Assembly (NCBI GenBank): GCA_015178975.1
Contig: WHVD01000053.1
Span: forward strand, 310,001 to 374,000
Source of the DNA: Hysterangium stoloniferum
Taxonomy: Eukaryota > Basidiomycota > Agaricomycetes > Hysterangiales > Hysterangiaceae
DNA length: 64,000 nucleotides
Reading direction: 5' to 3'
Position numbers and translations under genes: made by a program. This document shows, in pieces, positions 28,003 to 54,000 of the stretch (the first letter of the stretch is position 1; every line of letters starts with the position of its first letter). A model generated the notes under the pieces. That model was not told where the DNA came from. It ran no database searches and saw only the letters and a list, made by a program, of their open reading frames with translations.

Positions 28003-28763
28003 ATATGCCACCAAGAAGAAAAGCACATATACAGGAATCATTACCTGGACCTTTGACTCTTCATTCCCCACTTACTTTGTATACCAGCCAGACACTCACA
28101 AACCAGCTGGATGCCATGGAAGAAGTCTGTATTGAAGAAGTCCCAGAAACCCAGATGAATCTGAGCACAAAGATGAGTCCATGGCCCCCAACAAGGGCAA
28201 TGGTGTCGAAAATTCCCCATCTAATGATCGACTGCCACTTGTGGATCCCACTTCCAAGTTTTAGCAATTACGTTAGAGAGATTGATGAATCACATGCTCA
28301 GAGAAGGCAAAAAGAAGGATCTGGAACCTCTGCAGTCAAAAGTCAATGCTCCGGAACCCTTCACGGGTTCAACCCTAACAAACCTTCCACCTTCCTCATG
28401 CAATGCTGTTTTAATTTCCATGATTGATCTGCCACATTCTCCACAGACTCCCGAAAAGTCAATTATGCACTTTAATACCTCTCGGGATCCACATTGAAAT
28501 GGTTTGAACCAGCTTTTAGCAGACTTTCCAAGGAAGAACCGTTTTGGCTTGAAGATTGGGATGCTTTTGTTATGGAGCTAGAAACCAACTTTGGCCTGTA
28601 TGACCTGTTAGATTTGGAAATACAATATCTATTAGAATGTCCAAGCTGTTATAAGTCCCTAGTTGGCATCAGTCCAGATGTGACTGTATAAGTCCCAAGG
28701 TAGCATCAGAAGGACTTATATAGAATATGTATATATAATCCATAATATCTCACTAGACCAATA

Positions 28764-28837
28764 GGTCCAGTAGCTCAGTGGTTAAGAGCACTGCTTATAT
28801 AAAGCCAGAGGTCCTTGGTTCAATCCCAGGCTGGGTC
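28764..28837 (+). tRNA. tRNA-like gene in TRIM LTR 1
   Basis: 74 nt with a complete 7-bp acceptor stem (GGTCCAG with CTGGGTC, including G-T pairs), a D arm GCTC/GAGC, a 5-bp T stem (CTTGG/CCAGG) and T loop TTCAATC. Box A (TAGCTCAGTGGTTA) and box B (GGTTCAATCCC) are good RNA polymerase III promoter elements. The anticodon arm (CTGCTTATATAAAGCCAG) is one base too long and pairs imperfectly, so the anticodon is ambiguous (TAT or ATA). I see a tRNA-derived Pol III unit rather than a proven functional tRNA. No CCA is encoded. Confidence 0.75.
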
Positions 28838-28860
28838 AATTCTCTTCTATACCTTTAACA

Positions 28861-28926
28861 GGTTATGGGCCCCGTCAGCGCTGCTGCATATAGGGTGAAT
28901 AGATTAGATATTGATTTCAGGGGAAG
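28861..28926 (+). other. TRIM internal region with half-tRNA primer site
   Basis: Only 66 bp. It opens with GGTTATGGGCCC, complementary to the anticodon arm of initiator tRNA-Met (GGGCCCAUAACC). Priming from a cleaved initiator tRNA is known for copia-type elements. It closes with a purine-rich CAGGGGAAG directly before LTR 2, a plausible polypurine tract. The same primer site follows the LTR at 55602. Confidence 0.8.
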
Positions 28927-28992
28927 TGTTAGATTTGGAAATACAATATCTATTAGAATGTCCAAGCTGTTATAAGTCCCTAGTTGGCATCA

Positions 28993-29577
28993 TGTTAAGT
29001 GCCGTGTCGGGAACTTATTCCGGAACTATCGGGAAGTCACCGGGAAGTCGGAAACTCGTGGATAGGGTCAGGACGTCGGCTTCAGCTTATGTGCTGCGCC
29101 TCTATGCAAACGCTCAATGTCCTTAATTTCGGAAGTGAACTAACGACAGAAGATATGGATATTCAGAGTTCCAAAGAGTTCCGAATATCGAGCGTACAGA
29201 AAGATGGGAGGAGGAATAAGAAACTAAGTCGATATCAGATCTAAGGTAAAGTACAAATTCGCGGAAACTAATATAAGTCTGCTCATTATTGTACTACAAG
29301 CTAAGACCATAATAAGATGGAAACGGAAGTGTTCTTAAAACGGAAATACAATAAGACATATTAGGAAGGCAATATTCCGTAACAGGAATATAACAAACAA
29401 ACGAGTGAATACTTGTCAACGGACAAATTACCAAATGTGGAACAAGGGAAGAATGCGGATGATACGGTAACTATGATGTTCCGTAGTCGGATATCGGATA
29501 TCGAAAGTGGGAGATCGGAAGTCGGAAGTGGGAGATCGGAAGTTGGATATTGAAACATCCGGGAACGGGTCGTAACA
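28993..29577 (-). mobile_element. Solo LTR-C, copy 2, inside TRIM LTR 2
   Basis: 585 bp, reading TGTTACGACCCGTTCCCGG on the minus strand to GGCACTTAACA. It is flanked by CATCA at 28988-28992 and 29578-29582. The empty site is seen in TRIM LTR 1. Differences from the 22.6-kb copy are mostly CpG transitions. Confidence 0.95.
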
Positions 29578-29674
29578 CATCAGTCCAGATGTGACTGTAT
29601 AAGTCCCAAGGTAGCATCAGAAGGACTTATATAGAATATGTATATATAATCCATAATATCTCACTAGACCAATA

Positions 29675-29748
29675 GGTCCAGTAGCTCAGTGGTTAAGAGC
29701 ACTGCTTATATAAAGCCAGAGGTCCTTGGTTCAATCCCAGGCTGGGTC
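29675..29748 (+). tRNA. tRNA-like gene in TRIM LTR 2
   Basis: Identical 74-nt copy of the tRNA-like sequence at 28764-28837, at the same offset within the LTR once the nested LTR-C is removed. Confidence 0.75.
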
Positions 29749-30540
29749 AATTCTTTTCTATACCTTTAACATGACCCAACCAGAGAAGCTGGGAATAGCC
29801 TCACCAATCTTCATATGAAGGACAGCCAGCACATCACAGACTACATTGTCCAATTCAATAATCTTGCAGTGCATTGTCAATGGGGTGATCCTGCTCTCTG
29901 CCACCAATTCTATGCCAGTTGCCATCCCACCTTAAGGACAAAGTCTCAAAAGGAGAAGATGGCAAACCAAAAACACTGTCCCATATGCACCTCAAGGCTC
30001 AAAATGTGGATGCATGCTATTGGGAGTGTCATGTGGAAGTTGCCTGCAAGACCTCTGTGGACAAGGTCAACAAGTCCATGGCCAATAAAACCAACAACAA
30101 CACCCTGTCCACCAGCAACCAAAACTCCATGGAATCCAATCGGAAGAATGACAAAAGGTCTTCCAACAACAACAACAACAACAAAGGTCAGCAGTCTGGC
30201 AAGCAAACCAGAAAACCCAACCTTACAGGCAAGCTTGGACCTGATGGCAAACTGACCCCACAAGAAAGACAATGTCGTATGGACAATAGCCTTTGTCTCT
30301 TGTGTGGAAAACCCAGTCATTGAGTTCTGGAATGTCCATTGGCGAATGCAAACTCTGCCAAAGGTCAAACAGGCAACACTTCCTCCATGGAATCCCCATC
30401 GAAGGACAAACCAGCTTCTGACTCAAAAAAAGAGTAAGCAACCCCACAGACTCCATGCGGGTTGGGGGTTGCATTGCCTCTCCATGCATTCTTGAGTTTA
30501 CCTGTCTCAGTGCATCTGATCTTTTGAACTCTCACTGAAG

Positions 30541-31750: not shown

Positions 31751-32263
31751 AGAGGCAGCCAGCTCCTGAGGAGATAGTACCCAACTTGCCAGAGGTGGTG
31801 ATTTCTCAACCTGAAGTGATTCCCCAAGTTTTACCTCTCCCACCTGAGCAAATAGATATGGTGCTATGCCACCTCCTGAGCCAGCTATGGAGCAGGATGA
31901 GGTGCAGGGAATTACTGAAGAACTTGAACCTGAACAAATGACAGAGGTTAGGCAGAAGAAGAAAAAACAAACAAAAGTCTCCCAGATAAAATATTATGCT
32001 TATTGACTCTTTCAAAGAATTGGTGAAGCAACAACAATTCTGAGAAGTGGAAAACTACTTCAGCAATATATTGTAGATGCATGGGCAGCAGCAGAGAAAA
32101 ACAGGCTATCATGGATAAGACTCAATCAAGGCACTTTATGGGCTGAAATTTACCATCAGGTGGTTGCTGCCTTTACAGTACAGGATAATAACCAGCAACC
32201 TGAGCCAAATGAAATTGGAAGTAGATTTATACTGCCACAACCTTCCAAGGTAGCAGTCAGGAT

Positions 32264-33184
32264 ATGATGGAAAATTTGCAAAATTCACTGGCTATATCAT
32301 GCAAGTATGGCAATGCAAGCATGTTTATTACTATGACAGCCAACCCCAAATGGAGGAAAATAACTGAAGCACTTCTTCCAGGCCAAACTGCAGCCAATCG
32401 CCCAGATATAGTGTCATGTGCTTTTGCATTGAAAAAGGCACACTTGCTCCACCTCATTATGAAGAAACATTACCTTGGCAAAACAGTTGCCTGTGTCCAT
32501 ACCATTGAATTTCAGAAGCATGGATTCCCTCACATGCATTTGCTCATATGGTTTGAAGAGGGGGCAAAACTTCGGACTCCTGCAGAAGTTGATTCTATGA
32601 TATCTGCAGAGTTTCCAGATAAAGATGAGCATCCAAAACTTTACAAGTTGGTATCTGAGCTCATGACTCATGTATGTGGTGAAAAATATATCAAAGATAA
32701 CAAATGTACAAAGCATTTTCCCAAGCTCTTTCGTGAATCTACAAGTATTAATGAAGATGGCTATTCAAAGTACCACCGTAGAAATGATGGCAGAAAACAT
32801 AAAGTCAGAGGTCATGAGCTAGACAATGGACATGTTGTCCCTTACTGTGCTGCCCTTCTTCTCATTCTGGAATGTCATATCAATGTTGAGATGACTTTTA
32901 ATGTTCGCTCTATTAAATATATTCACAAGTATATATACAAAGGACATGATCTTACAACAATGGAGTTCGGAAAGAACAAGGATGAAATTCAACAATATAT
33001 TGATGCCTGCTATGTCAGTGCACATGAAGCATTTTGGAGACTTTTGGAAAATGAGATACATACTCAAATTCCTGCTGTCATAGCCCTCCCTGTGCATTTA
33101 GAGAATCAACAGTCAGTTATCTTTGATGGCATGGAGGGTCCAGAAGAGGCTTTGGATGCTGCCCATCATTCCAAGACAAGTTGA
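32264..33184 (+). pseudogene. Helitron-2 Rep (HUH/Y2) domain
   Basis: Rolling-circle replication initiator domain. It begins in SLAISCKYGNASMFITMTAN, shows the HUH metal-binding motif in FPHMHLLIWFEEG (about 32526) and the Tyr region IKYIHKYIYKGHD (about 32910). ACYVSAHEAFWRLLENEIH is a Helitron-typical block after it. HUH endonucleases nick one DNA strand through the tyrosines. The frame ends at TGA 33182 because of a local shift; the following frame continues as LMAYFEANSKN. Confidence 0.92.
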
Positions 33185-33903
33185 TGGCATACTTTGAGGC
33201 CAATTCTAAAAATACAATAGGCCTTAATGGTAGAGCAGCCAATTCACTTCACTATGTTGAGTTTCCTGAATTCTTCACATGGAATTCAAAAAACAGAAGA
33301 TGGAATACAAGGAAAAAGGGATTTGCCATTGGACATATTCATTTTGCAGGACACTCAAGTGGTCCAAGGTTCTTCCTACATACTTTACTCACAGTTGTCA
33401 AGGGGGAAACTTCTCATGAAGATCTCAGGACCTATGAAGGACAGGTATATCCTTCCTTCCAAGCGGCCTGTATGGCACGTGGTCTACTTGAAGATGAGAA
33501 AGAATGGAAGTTGTGTCTTCAAGAGGCAAAGGCTATGCAGACTGGATCTCAATTAAGGAGACTGTTTGCTACTATTCTCAGCCAATGCTTTCCTTCTGAT
33601 CCAGCTGCACTCTGGCATGAATTCAAAGCAGACATTTGTGATGACTTGAAACACTATCTTCAGACACATCTTTATCAACCAAATCAACCAGCCCCATCTG
33701 ATGAAATTCTTTGTACAAGTGGGAAACTACTCTCAGAGTACCCTCATATGCCTCAATTTACAGAGCTATGGGAAGATAGAGTGGGAAATCGATTCATCAA
33801 TGAACAGAGGGCTTATGACCAGGCAACTGAGCAAATAAAACCAGATATAGGGCCAGAGGGTTGCATACAATCAAATTATGGATGCTGTCATTGCAAGGCA
33901 TGA
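33181..33903 (+). pseudogene. Helitron-2 Rep-helicase linker
   Basis: Region between Rep and helicase: FFTWNSKNRRWNTRKKG, GPRFFLHTLLTVVKG, SFQAACMARGLLEDEKEWK and LRRLFATILSQCFPSDP, all Helitron-typical. It ends HMPQFTELWEDRVGNRF before a frameshift near 33865. Together with its neighbours it would have formed one long RepHel protein. Confidence 0.88.
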
Positions 33904-35226
33904 AACTGAAGTAGATGGAAAGCTTTTCTTTTTGAATGGACCTGGGGGTATGGGAAATCATTTGTTTGGAATACTTTGGCACATGCCTGCAGAGGCAAAA
34001 AACTCATTGTACTCTGTGTTGCCTCCTCTGGCATTGCTTCACTTATTCTGAGTGGTGGGTGGACATATCACAGCATGTTTCAAATCCCCGTTGAAGTTGA
34101 TGAGAAATCCATGTGTACAATGAAGAAAGGTTCAGATAAGGCAAATCTAATGAAAGAGGTCAGCCTTATTATTTGGGATGAGGTTCCAATGCAGAATCAC
34201 TTTGCCTGTGAGGCAGTAGATCGGAGCCTTAGAGATATCCTTAACAAGGATATTCCTTCTGGAGGCATTACAGTAGCTTGGGGTGGTGACTTTCAACAGA
34301 CATTGCCTGTCATTCCTAAAGGTTCAAAAGAAGATATTATTGGTGCATGTATCTCACAGTCTCACCTTTGGCACAATATCAAGATTTTGTTTTTGACTGA
34401 GAATATGCATGTAGATCCTACTGATCAAGAGAGTGCTGTTTTTGCTCAGTGGCTTTTGGATATTGGACATGGAAAGGACATGCCTCTTGATCACATGTTT
34501 AAAGTCCCTGAACACATGCTATGTGGAACAACAGTGGATAATTTAGTCTCAACTATTTATCCAAACATACATGATCCTGAGGTTCTTACTGATGAGTTTT
34601 TCTTGGAGCGGGCCATTCTCTGTCCTCGAAATACAGATGTAGATCAAATCAATGACATGCTCTTTGAAAAATTCCCAGGGATTGGGAAAACCTACCACAG
34701 TGCAGACAGTGTCAAAGATGGAGTCAATGAGACATTATATCCTCCTTAGTACTTAAACTCAATCAACTTTGGAGGATTGCCACCAAGTAAATTGCATTTG
34801 AAACCTGGAGTGCCATTGATGCTGCTTCAAAACTTGGATCCAGGACAAGGACTCTGTAATGGAACAAGACTCTGGTTAATACAAATGACTCACAGAGTAC
34901 TTCAAGTGAAGATCATTACAGGACCTTCAGCAGGAGAGCTGGCATTCATCTCCCAAATAACAATTATTTCAACTACAAAACAAGTGCCATTTGAACTGCA
35001 TCATGGGCAGTTTCCAGTCAGGCTAGCATTTTCTATGACTATCAATAAGTCACAGGGCCAATCTTTAAAATTAGTTGGATTGTATCTGCATAGTCCTGTG
35101 TTCTCACATGGACAGTTTTATGTTGGTGTTTCAAGAGGGACAAATTGGGGAAGAGTAAAAATTTTACTCCATGATACTGATATGACTGCAAATGTAGTGT
35201 TTAAGGATGTTATTATTGATCCATGA
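33904..35226 (+). pseudogene. Helitron-2 PIF1-like helicase
   Basis: ATP-dependent 5'-3' helicase domain. Walker A begins GPGGMG at about 33940 but a base is lost before the Lys-Ser, so the frame changes at the nucleotide-binding loop. Then come VASSGIASLILSGG, Walker B LIIWDEVPMQ, AWGGDFQQTLPV, the DIGHGKDMPLD block, PGVPLMLLQNLDPGQG and the C-terminal [14 protein letters not shown] and FYVGVSRGT motifs. A TAG lies in PP-stop-YLNSINFGG near 34747. Confidence 0.92.
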
Positions 35227-52385: not shown

Positions 52386-54000
52386 TCAATCTAATAATAC
52401 ATCTTTGTACACTATATTTGCAGTTCTCTTTGACTCCTTCTCTAATAATCTTTTAACCCTATTCCAACTTCTTCCCCTTGAAAGTCCCACATACAATTGC
52501 CCATGTCCAAACACAGCCATTCTCAAATCTAATCCTACTAATTTCAAAGATTGTCCCTGTGACTTGTTAATTGTCATTGCAAATGCCAGTCATACTGGAA
52601 ACTGAACCCGATGAAGTTTAAAAGGGAGTTCATCATCATTTGTAATGATTTTAATCCTTGAAATAAATGCCTCTTCCCCAGCACATGGTCCAGTTAAGAT
52701 CCACACCAAAAGCAAATGATTTTCCATTTTTAGTAGTCGCAATTTTGTACCATTGAAAAGTCCTATCTGTGGATCTATGTTCCATAGTAGCATTAAAGGT
52801 ACTCCTGGCTTCATCTCAAGTCGACTTGGTGAAATTCCACCAAAGTTGAGACTATTTAAATATTCCACAGGATAGACTTCTGCCTCCATATCACCCTCTG
52901 CAGTATCAGCACTGTGATAGATACGACTCACTCCAGGGAATCTATTCAAAAGTTCTGAATTAATTTCTTCCACATCTGAATTCCTAGGACACAGAATAGC
53001 ACAGTCTAAGAAGTCTCCATCTTGCCAATCTCTTTGGTCTCCATCCACATGGATGTCTGGATATATCTCAGCAATTAGATCAGACATTTCTGGACCACAG
53101 AGCATATGAGGAGGGATATCCATTGTATGATCCAAAGGCAAATCCTTTCCATGGCCTACATCTAAGAGCCACTGAGCAAACTGATCACTGTGTGGATCAT
53201 GCTGATCAACCTGCATATTCTTTTTCAAGAAAGGTACCTTAACATGGTTCCAGAGTTGAGATTTTTGAATACATTCACCAATAATCTGTTCTTTAGAGGC
53301 ATGTTGTACAACAGGCAAAGTCTGCTGGAAGTCACCTCCCCAGGCAACAGGAATGCCTCCAAAGGGGAGAGCATCTTTATCTAATACATCCCTTAGAGTT
53401 CTGTCGACTGCCTCATATATGAAACATGACTGCATTGGAACTTCATCCCAGATGATGAGGCATACTTGCTTCATGACCTCTGCCTTTTCTGAGCCCTTTT
53501 TGGTGACATGAGGAGTCCTTCTCGCAGGGAACAGGAATTGAAAACATGCTATGAGAGGTGCAACCACCTTTCAGAATCATTGATGCAATTCCAGATGAGG
53601 CGACACAAAGGACAATGTAGCCTTTGGCATGACATGCATGTGCAAGAGTATTCCATACAAAGGACTTGCCAGTGTCACCTGGGCTATTGACAAAGAACAT
53701 TTTGCCCTCCTGCTGCTCATCAACTGCCTTGATGATAGTGTCAAAAGCAACTTGTTGTTCAGGATTGGACTTTTCAAGATTGGCCTGGGCACTGGCATGC
53801 TCATGATCAAGATTATAATTCTTCTGCTCCCTAATGAGACAATTGCCAATGAACTGATCCCAATTTTCAGTGATTTGTGGCATGGTTGGATAGAGTGAAA
53901 GAGACTTTCCAGAATAATGGAGGATTTTATCAATCTGATAGAGACCAAAGTCATAAATTGTGTGAGGTGCTGCATTGTCAATGTTATATGTAACCCTCAG
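52386..54000 (-). pseudogene. Helitron-3 PIF1-like helicase
   Basis: On the minus strand: YDFGLYQIDKILHYSGKSLS, QITENWDQFIGNCLIREQKN, a Walker A that reads NSPGDTGKSFVWN (NSPGDTG where GPGGTG is usual), VASSGIASMILKGG, a frameshift near 53530, Walker B LIIWDEVPMQ, AWGGDFQQTLPVV, DVGHGKDLPLDH, KPGVPLMLLWNIDPQIG and, after one in-frame TGA near 52588 at a likely Arg ([15 protein letters not shown]), [13 protein letters not shown] and [12 protein letters not shown] to the stop at 52386. Only two lesions are seen in 1.6 kb. The Rep half is absent. Confidence 0.92.

Follow-up and report, generated by a model that had tools for sequence, protein, structure and literature searches.

TRIMs with tRNA-derived sequence in their LTRs have already been described. 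Kojima (2024) named them Helenus and, in the portions of that paper that we draw on throughout, reports them from Pucciniales, Agaricus bisporus, Coprinopsis cinerea, Amylostereum areolatum, animals, and Selaginella (PMC10886601). The fungal members make 5-bp duplications, have a primer site that is predominantly of the initiator tRNA-Met (iMet) anticodon-loop type, and are linked to Copia elements; their helper was deduced by comparing primer sites and the length of duplications, together with a single cross-species similarity between interiors, and Pol III transcription is likewise unproven for them (PMC10886601). The plant TRIM Cassandra is a second point of reference: according to the same portions, Pol III starts and stops within its LTRs and no helper element is indicated (PMC10886601), and tandem arrays of it are reported in part of another source (PMC7215508).

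Here, we describe an element of this kind from Hysterangium stoloniferum, found at positions 28606-29771 of the window, by which we mean the whole 64,000-nucleotide stretch of DNA that was analyzed. Judged by the published description, it is a member of the already described Helenus group: as in Helenus, its LTRs contain a tRNA-like part with conserved boxes A and B (PMC10886601, in part). The earlier note on this DNA had suggested that the LTRs of this TRIM contain an internal Pol III promoter of tRNA type, and this is still the best reading in view of the copies, the boxes, and the tRNA of a sister subfamily; its idea of an independent fungal case gives way to the 2024 description of Helenus, as far as that source was consulted (PMC10886601). 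The element resembles Cassandra in that its LTRs harbor a probable Pol III promoter of small-RNA type and in that it occurs in tandem arrays (PMC7215508 and PMC10886601, in part); the two differ in that the promoter of Cassandra is derived from 5S rRNA and its hosts are land plants, whereas the sequence here is tRNA-like. Ajax, a nemertean TRIM, is similarly a TRIMp3 with 5-bp duplications, but its promoter is a partial 5S rRNA and its host an animal (PMC10886601, in part). Finally, tRNA-derived SINEs are also short, non-coding, and equipped with tRNA-type boxes A and B, yet they are without LTRs, primer binding site (PBS), or polypurine tract (PPT) and are mobilized through target-primed reverse transcription with LINE machinery; LTRs, PBS, PPT, and duplications of a fixed 5 bp are all present here.

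The element is complete, with paired LTRs, interior, PBS, PPT, and 5-bp duplication, and is 576 bp long once a later solo-LTR insertion is subtracted. On the plus strand, the target-site duplication TGACC (28601-28605 on the left, 29772-29776 on the right) encloses a 5′ LTR of 255 bp (28606-28860; TGTTAGAT...TTTAACA), an interior of 66 bp (28861-28926) that is too short for any protein of the cycle, and a 3′ LTR in two pieces. The interior begins with the 14-nt primer binding site GGTTATGGGCCCCG (28861-28874) and ends with the polypurine tract CAGGGGAAG (28918-28926), which adjoins the 3′ LTRs in copies of both subfamilies described below. The initial 66 bp of the 3′ LTR (28927-28992) are separated from its other 189 bp (29583-29771) by the inserted solo LTR, 585 bp in length (28993-29577; TGTTAAGTG...GTAACA, hence TG...CA) and flanked by its own duplication, CATCA (28988-28992 and 29578-29582). 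A short LTR pair, a tiny interior without coding capacity, and the PBS and PPT together make this a TRIM. Its two LTRs differ by a single substitution, C at 28844 in the 5′ LTR and T in the 3′ LTR. All of this bears out the anatomy given in the earlier note (255-bp LTRs, 66-bp interior, TGACC, one mismatch). Stretches 98-99% identical to the inserted solo LTR occur at other places in the genome, so the family it belongs to was probably recently active.

Each LTR contains a 75-nt tRNA-like sequence (28764-28838 in the 5′ LTR, 29675-29749 in the 3′ LTR, both on the plus strand), and ARAGORN calls both as “tRNA-???,” that is, without an isotype. Rfam RF00005 (tRNA) matches with 45.4 bits, well beyond its gathering score, which is 29 (E 5e-8), and, at E up to 0.1, is the only Rfam family found in 28300-30100; the 5S rRNA that characterizes Cassandra LTRs is not among the matches in that interval. 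Acceptor, D, and T arms are standard and the anticodon arm is irregular, with box A (TAGCTCAGTGG) at 28771-28781 and box B (GGTTCAATCCC) at 28817-28827. The arms and boxes had been correctly described before; the length had been given as 74 nt, one too few. A 19-nt pattern covering the A box and D arm (≤2 mismatches) has 428 sites in the genome, a count that may include ordinary tRNA genes, versus one for the reversed control. The tRNA-like part is no chance occurrence: LTR and tRNA part recur together many times in this genome.

The genome searched comprises 111 Mb in 554 contigs, and the family in it consists of two subfamilies. Subfamily A, that of the window copy, is ≥90% identical to it; subfamily B is ∼82% identical to A in the LTRs and ∼84% in the interiors. 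The comparison set comprises 72 distinct LTRs of full length (32 from A and 40 from B), each a single BLAST alignment running from LTR position ≤3 to ≥250, a criterion that in itself would exclude tRNA-less LTRs; B loci were reached through their interiors, so that B solo LTRs are absent from the set by construction. Box A is intact in 29/32 A and 40/40 B LTRs, and box B in 32/32 and 39/40. Since the criterion of this set would drop tRNA-less LTRs, retention is more fairly judged with a query free of the tRNA, the first 158 bp of the LTR. Leaving aside a second match on C534 (74%), 36 of its best 40 among 313 candidates continue across the tRNA as far as the end of the LTR; of other copies traced, one (L039) is truncated inside the tRNA and one aligned over positions 1-133 alone. 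The genome search proposed in the earlier note returned the many copies with conserved boxes A and B that it had named as support, and the tRNA is kept in the sister subfamily as well; the note's worry that other LTR copies might be without the tRNA part is contradicted in this sample.

A perfect 5-bp duplication is present at 21/23 A solo LTRs (mean of 0.94 under shuffled pairing), at 3/3 A pairs besides the window copy, and at 12/14 B pairs, so that, with TGACC at the window copy and these A solo LTRs, the duplication length is the one described for fungal Helenus (PMC10886601, in part). At one locus (L051), five LTRs alternate with four interiors in a tandem array, which has one duplication, TCTAG, at its ends; a zebrafish family of Helenus is likewise arrayed (PMC10886601, in part).

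How the two subfamilies diverge is informative about the tRNA-like part. Majority letters differ between A and B at 35/94 columns of the upstream LTR (positions 21-120), 4/20 of positions 1-20, 5/37 of the TATA block, and 1/22 of the tail, and at none of the 53 columns of the tRNA core, by which we mean the acceptor, D, and T arms. The contrast between core and upstream LTR has p = 2e-8 in a count with 35/96 upstream columns. The ratio of differences to polymorphic columns is 35:32 upstream versus 0:8 in the core (p = 0.006), where 30 of the 35 upstream differences are strictly fixed and five hold for the majority only. Boxes A and B on their own remain distinct from the upstream LTR (0/22 vs. 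35/94, p = 2e-4), and the anticodon arm, with 4/21 differences and two indel columns, stands apart from the core around it (0/53, p = 0.005). Within A, the mean minority-letter share is about equal in the tRNA-like part (0.011) and LTR positions 1-120 (0.014); within B, it is much lower in the tRNA-like part (0.001 vs. 0.021).

Unchanged boxes and core beside a drifting anticodon arm would be expected of an internal Pol III promoter but not of a decoding tRNA, and the pattern between A and B fits selection on such a promoter. The tRNA fold may possibly be under selection too. Between A and B, 0/31 core columns outside the boxes have changed versus 6/59 in neighboring LTR blocks, a contrast that is not significant (p = 0.09), and selection on that part of the core as such is unsupported. 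Of the suggestion in the earlier note that selection acts on promoter or fold and not on decoding, the promoter (boxes, 0/22) and the exclusion of decoding (anticodon arm, 4/21) are supported, and the fold may have a role of its own.

The most serious competing explanation is transcription by Pol II from a TATA box. A TATA-like motif, TATATATAA, lies at 28730-28738 on the plus strand, 34 to 26 nt 5′ of the tRNA-like start, and is present in 31/32 A and 40/40 B LTRs; from such a position, Pol II would begin at about the 5′ end of the tRNA-like part, which would then be kept for some other reason such as a fold used in packaging or end protection. The absence of any change in the 31 core columns outside the boxes would suit a fold of this kind. 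Similar TATA-like motifs are seen in L081 and L094, which have the same primer site but no tRNA, so the TATA box may fit Pol II just as well. However, Pol II gives no reason why boxes A and B are unchanged alongside a drifting anticodon arm, and the conservation of the fold beyond the boxes falls short of significance against its neighbors, as noted; we regard the explanation as unlikely. Less probable again is that the conservation is only apparent and goes back to recent recombination between A and B, or to separate capture of the same tRNA copy. A and B are more alike in the TATA block, the tRNA core, and the tail than in the upstream LTR, and recombination involving TRIM elements does occur, as the joins to Copia LTRs below attest, but the anticodon arm differs amid two unchanged halves, and a single exchange is unlikely because it would have made that arm uniform too.

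Two further explanations treat the tRNA-like part as an ordinary tRNA sequence, and we give both very little credence. It could be a tRNA pseudogene inserted by chance in one copy or sublineage, which the imperfect anticodon arm and missing isotype would allow; yet the earlier note's alternative of a chance pseudogene in one subfamily only is contradicted by its presence in both A and B, and copies found with the tRNA-free query run through it (36/40, among the best 40 of 313). Or the element could be spreading a functional tRNA gene, as the intact acceptor, D, and T arms and the covariance-model score of 45.4 bits might suggest; against this, the anticodon arm is irregular, ARAGORN assigns no isotype, and that arm is the only tRNA-like segment to differ between A and B. 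A functional tRNA is considered unlikely for Helenus as well (PMC10886601, in part).

We therefore return to the Pol III reading and consider it likely, on the sequence evidence, that the element is a Helenus-type TRIM (TRIMp3) whose LTR carries a tRNA-like Pol III promoter and whose cycle is served by Copia. Anatomy and the retained boxes A and B are the observed part of this cycle, and its transcription, packaging, and priming steps are inferred from them. Within the 5′ LTR, Pol III would start (by assumption ∼10 nt 5′ of the tRNA-like part) and read past a weak T4 site; it would stop at the T4 run 3′ of the tRNA-like part in the 3′ LTR. The RNA would be ∼414 nt long, with repeated ends (R) of ∼93 nt that would be essentially the tRNA-like sequence; it would be packaged and primed by spliced tRNA-iMet, and Copia elements with the common primer site would supply the proteins for its copying and integration. 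The sole run of four or more Ts in the 72 LTRs lies just 3′ of the tRNA-like part, in 28/32 A and 40/40 B LTRs (one of them a T6). In the window, it is found at 29754-29757 of the 3′ LTR, a possible Pol III termination site; the corresponding site of the 5′ LTR (28843-28846, plus strand), a possible leaky terminator, reads TCTT, this being the single LTR mismatch. Two Copia LTRs have two T5 runs each. A general depletion of T runs is a weak argument for Pol III, with 0.67 runs expected and P(0) of 0.51.

The primer site, GGTTATGGGCCC, can base-pair with what we take to be the anticodon arm of initiator tRNA-Met, and the first 12 nt of GGTTATGGGCCCCG are presumably complementary to its anticodon loop and stem. 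The exact pattern of an unspliced iMet anticodon arm has no match in the genome. That absence agrees with the intron published for these tRNA genes 3′ of the anticodon, and a primer site of the iMet-anticodon-loop type, to which the one here presumably belongs, is the one described for fungal Helenus (PMC10886601, in part). A 20-nt primer-site pattern (≤2 mismatches) has 55 sites in the genome versus none for the control. A candidate helper is an intact Copia element (L088), which has a 306-bp LTR pair that is 100% identical, a frame of 1416 aa that encodes RVT_2, integrase core, gag, and further Copia domains, and a primer site whose first 14 nt are the same as those of the TRIM; ARAGORN makes no tRNA call in it. 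Among the best 120 relatives of its protein (7999 candidates scored), the fungi named are basidiomycetes (for example, Dentipellis, Mycena, Trametes, Armillaria, Sparassis, Hohenbuehelia, Tulasnella, and Serendipita), and further relatives are listed under oomycete, plant, and arachnid names. A second family, Copia-2, has an LTR of the type first met at C509, 87% identical to that of L088; its copies are ∼5.1 kb long, as judged from LTR and RT coordinates, with an open frame of 1284 aa (e.g., C224:12792-17873), and its primer site (L102) opens with the same 14 nt.

ARAGORN calls no tRNA in any of 12 primer-site neighborhoods outside A and B (L081, L082, L093-L100, L102, and L103), of which some have established status as LTR elements and one (L098) is represented by a second, minus-strand site; the tRNA is therefore particular to the A and B TRIMs among those sampled. 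Two of the neighborhoods, L081 (C124:520428-521302) and L082 (C541), are tRNA-less LTR elements with the same primer site and LTRs of 162 and ∼155 bp, respectively. No long frames are seen in the stretch read for either, and by eye they have a short interior block, AACGCTGCGA...CTGGCTGACTGAGGTGCCGAA, in common.

Hybrids also connect the TRIM with Copia. We scored the best 40 of 79 candidate interiors, of which 33 are B and seven A-type (≥87% identical to the A interior). Four of the seven lie between TRIM LTRs (C475, C96, C518, and C521) and three are joined to foreign LTRs. The hybrid on C509 consists of a Copia LTR, a TRIM interior, and a 3′ end of 22 bp, with ACCCC flanking both sides. This end may be read either as the start of a TRIM LTR passing into the end of a Copia LTR or as a TRIM LTR with an internal deletion; the Copia 5′ LTR, TRIM interior, and duplication stand under both readings, and gene conversion after integration may be the origin of the hybrid. 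On C113, the order is Copia LTR end, TRIM interior, TRIM LTR, and Copia interior. C543 has the same order with a different LTR, “X,” and there is no long coding frame within ∼1.2 kb 3′ of it.

The subfamilies differ plainly in their proximity to Copia. Within 30 kb of lower-scoring Copia RT hits lie 25/33 B interiors versus 1.4 expected and 1/41 A LTRs versus 1.7 expected; this group comprises the 97 hits below 231.9 bits among the best 150 of 1270 candidates, was split off after inspection, and mixes families, Copia-2 included. The p value of 2e-28 for B overstates the case, because the split is post hoc, the families are mixed, and neighboring copies are not independent. For the 53 higher-scoring hits, the counts are 3/33 for B (0.9 expected) and 1/41 for A (1.1 expected). 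At least two B copies (L060 and L063) lie nested within Copia copies that are nearly identical to L088. Co-location does not recommend Copia-2 as the partner of A, with 1/38 A near the 40 listed Copia-2 LTR places, and B is near those same 40 places in 0/33 cases. The Copia association of fungal Helenus (PMC10886601, in part) thus recurs here through the 14-nt PBS, the joins to Copia LTRs, and the position of B near Copia RT hits. Copia RT hits and subfamily B also pile up, in some cases nested, on C14, C35, C60, C109, C137, C182, C534, and C543; these domains are possibly centromeres.

To the known group this genome adds an intact Copia element with a 14-nt primer-site match, foreign LTRs on 3/7 A-type interiors, and a subfamily B near Copia with A dispersed. 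Relative to the Helenus description in the portions of PMC10886601 used here, the Copia-LTR chimeras, the test of polymorphism against divergence within one family, the subfamily-specific clustering with Copia hits, and the T4 observation all go further; a word search of its main text finds neither “TATA” nor “centromer-.” How LTR elements with Pol III promoters are mobilized is the question addressed by these findings. This one genome contains the TRIM, Copia elements that have open frames and its primer site, tRNA-less elements that have that site too, and hybrids, so the identity of the helper and the choice of polymerase can both be tested directly in it. Our more tentative proposal, which we hold with rather less than even confidence, is that the tRNA-like part makes up R in a Pol III transcript and that selection might keep weak the T4 stop which this transcript passes; that TRIM and Copia RNAs might be packaged together and recombine during reverse transcription, yielding hybrids that integrate with duplications; and that each subfamily might have its own Copia partner, so that the integrase of B's partner would steer B into that partner's clusters, while A is scattered.

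Some minor observations deserve mention. Transposon fragments are plentiful across the window, and Helitron-like and PIF1-like helicase domains are found at 32225-34749 and 52590-53570. Other tRNA-bearing repeats (L083-L087, on C112, C98, C68, and C526) were considered and rejected: they are without the TRIM primer site and are partly duplicated tRNA-gene units, with matching stretches of ∼160-450 bp that are 72-89% alike. ARAGORN calls tRNA-Lys(CTT) with a 6-nt intron in them, the exception among the nine calls being one in L087, with an intron of 550 nt, and tRNA-gene matches of 94-95 nt are many on C112 (mostly at 913-1219 kb), C68, C98, and C526. T runs are visible by eye 3′ of the tRNA-Lys genes in L083 and L086. 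By eye, a 15-nt stretch of the TRIM LTR, TATCTATTAGAATGT (LTR positions 21-35, 28626-28640 in the window), recurs just 5′ of two of the three tRNA-Lys copies in L086 and, over 14 nt, at the third, which may be chance or a shared promoter element.
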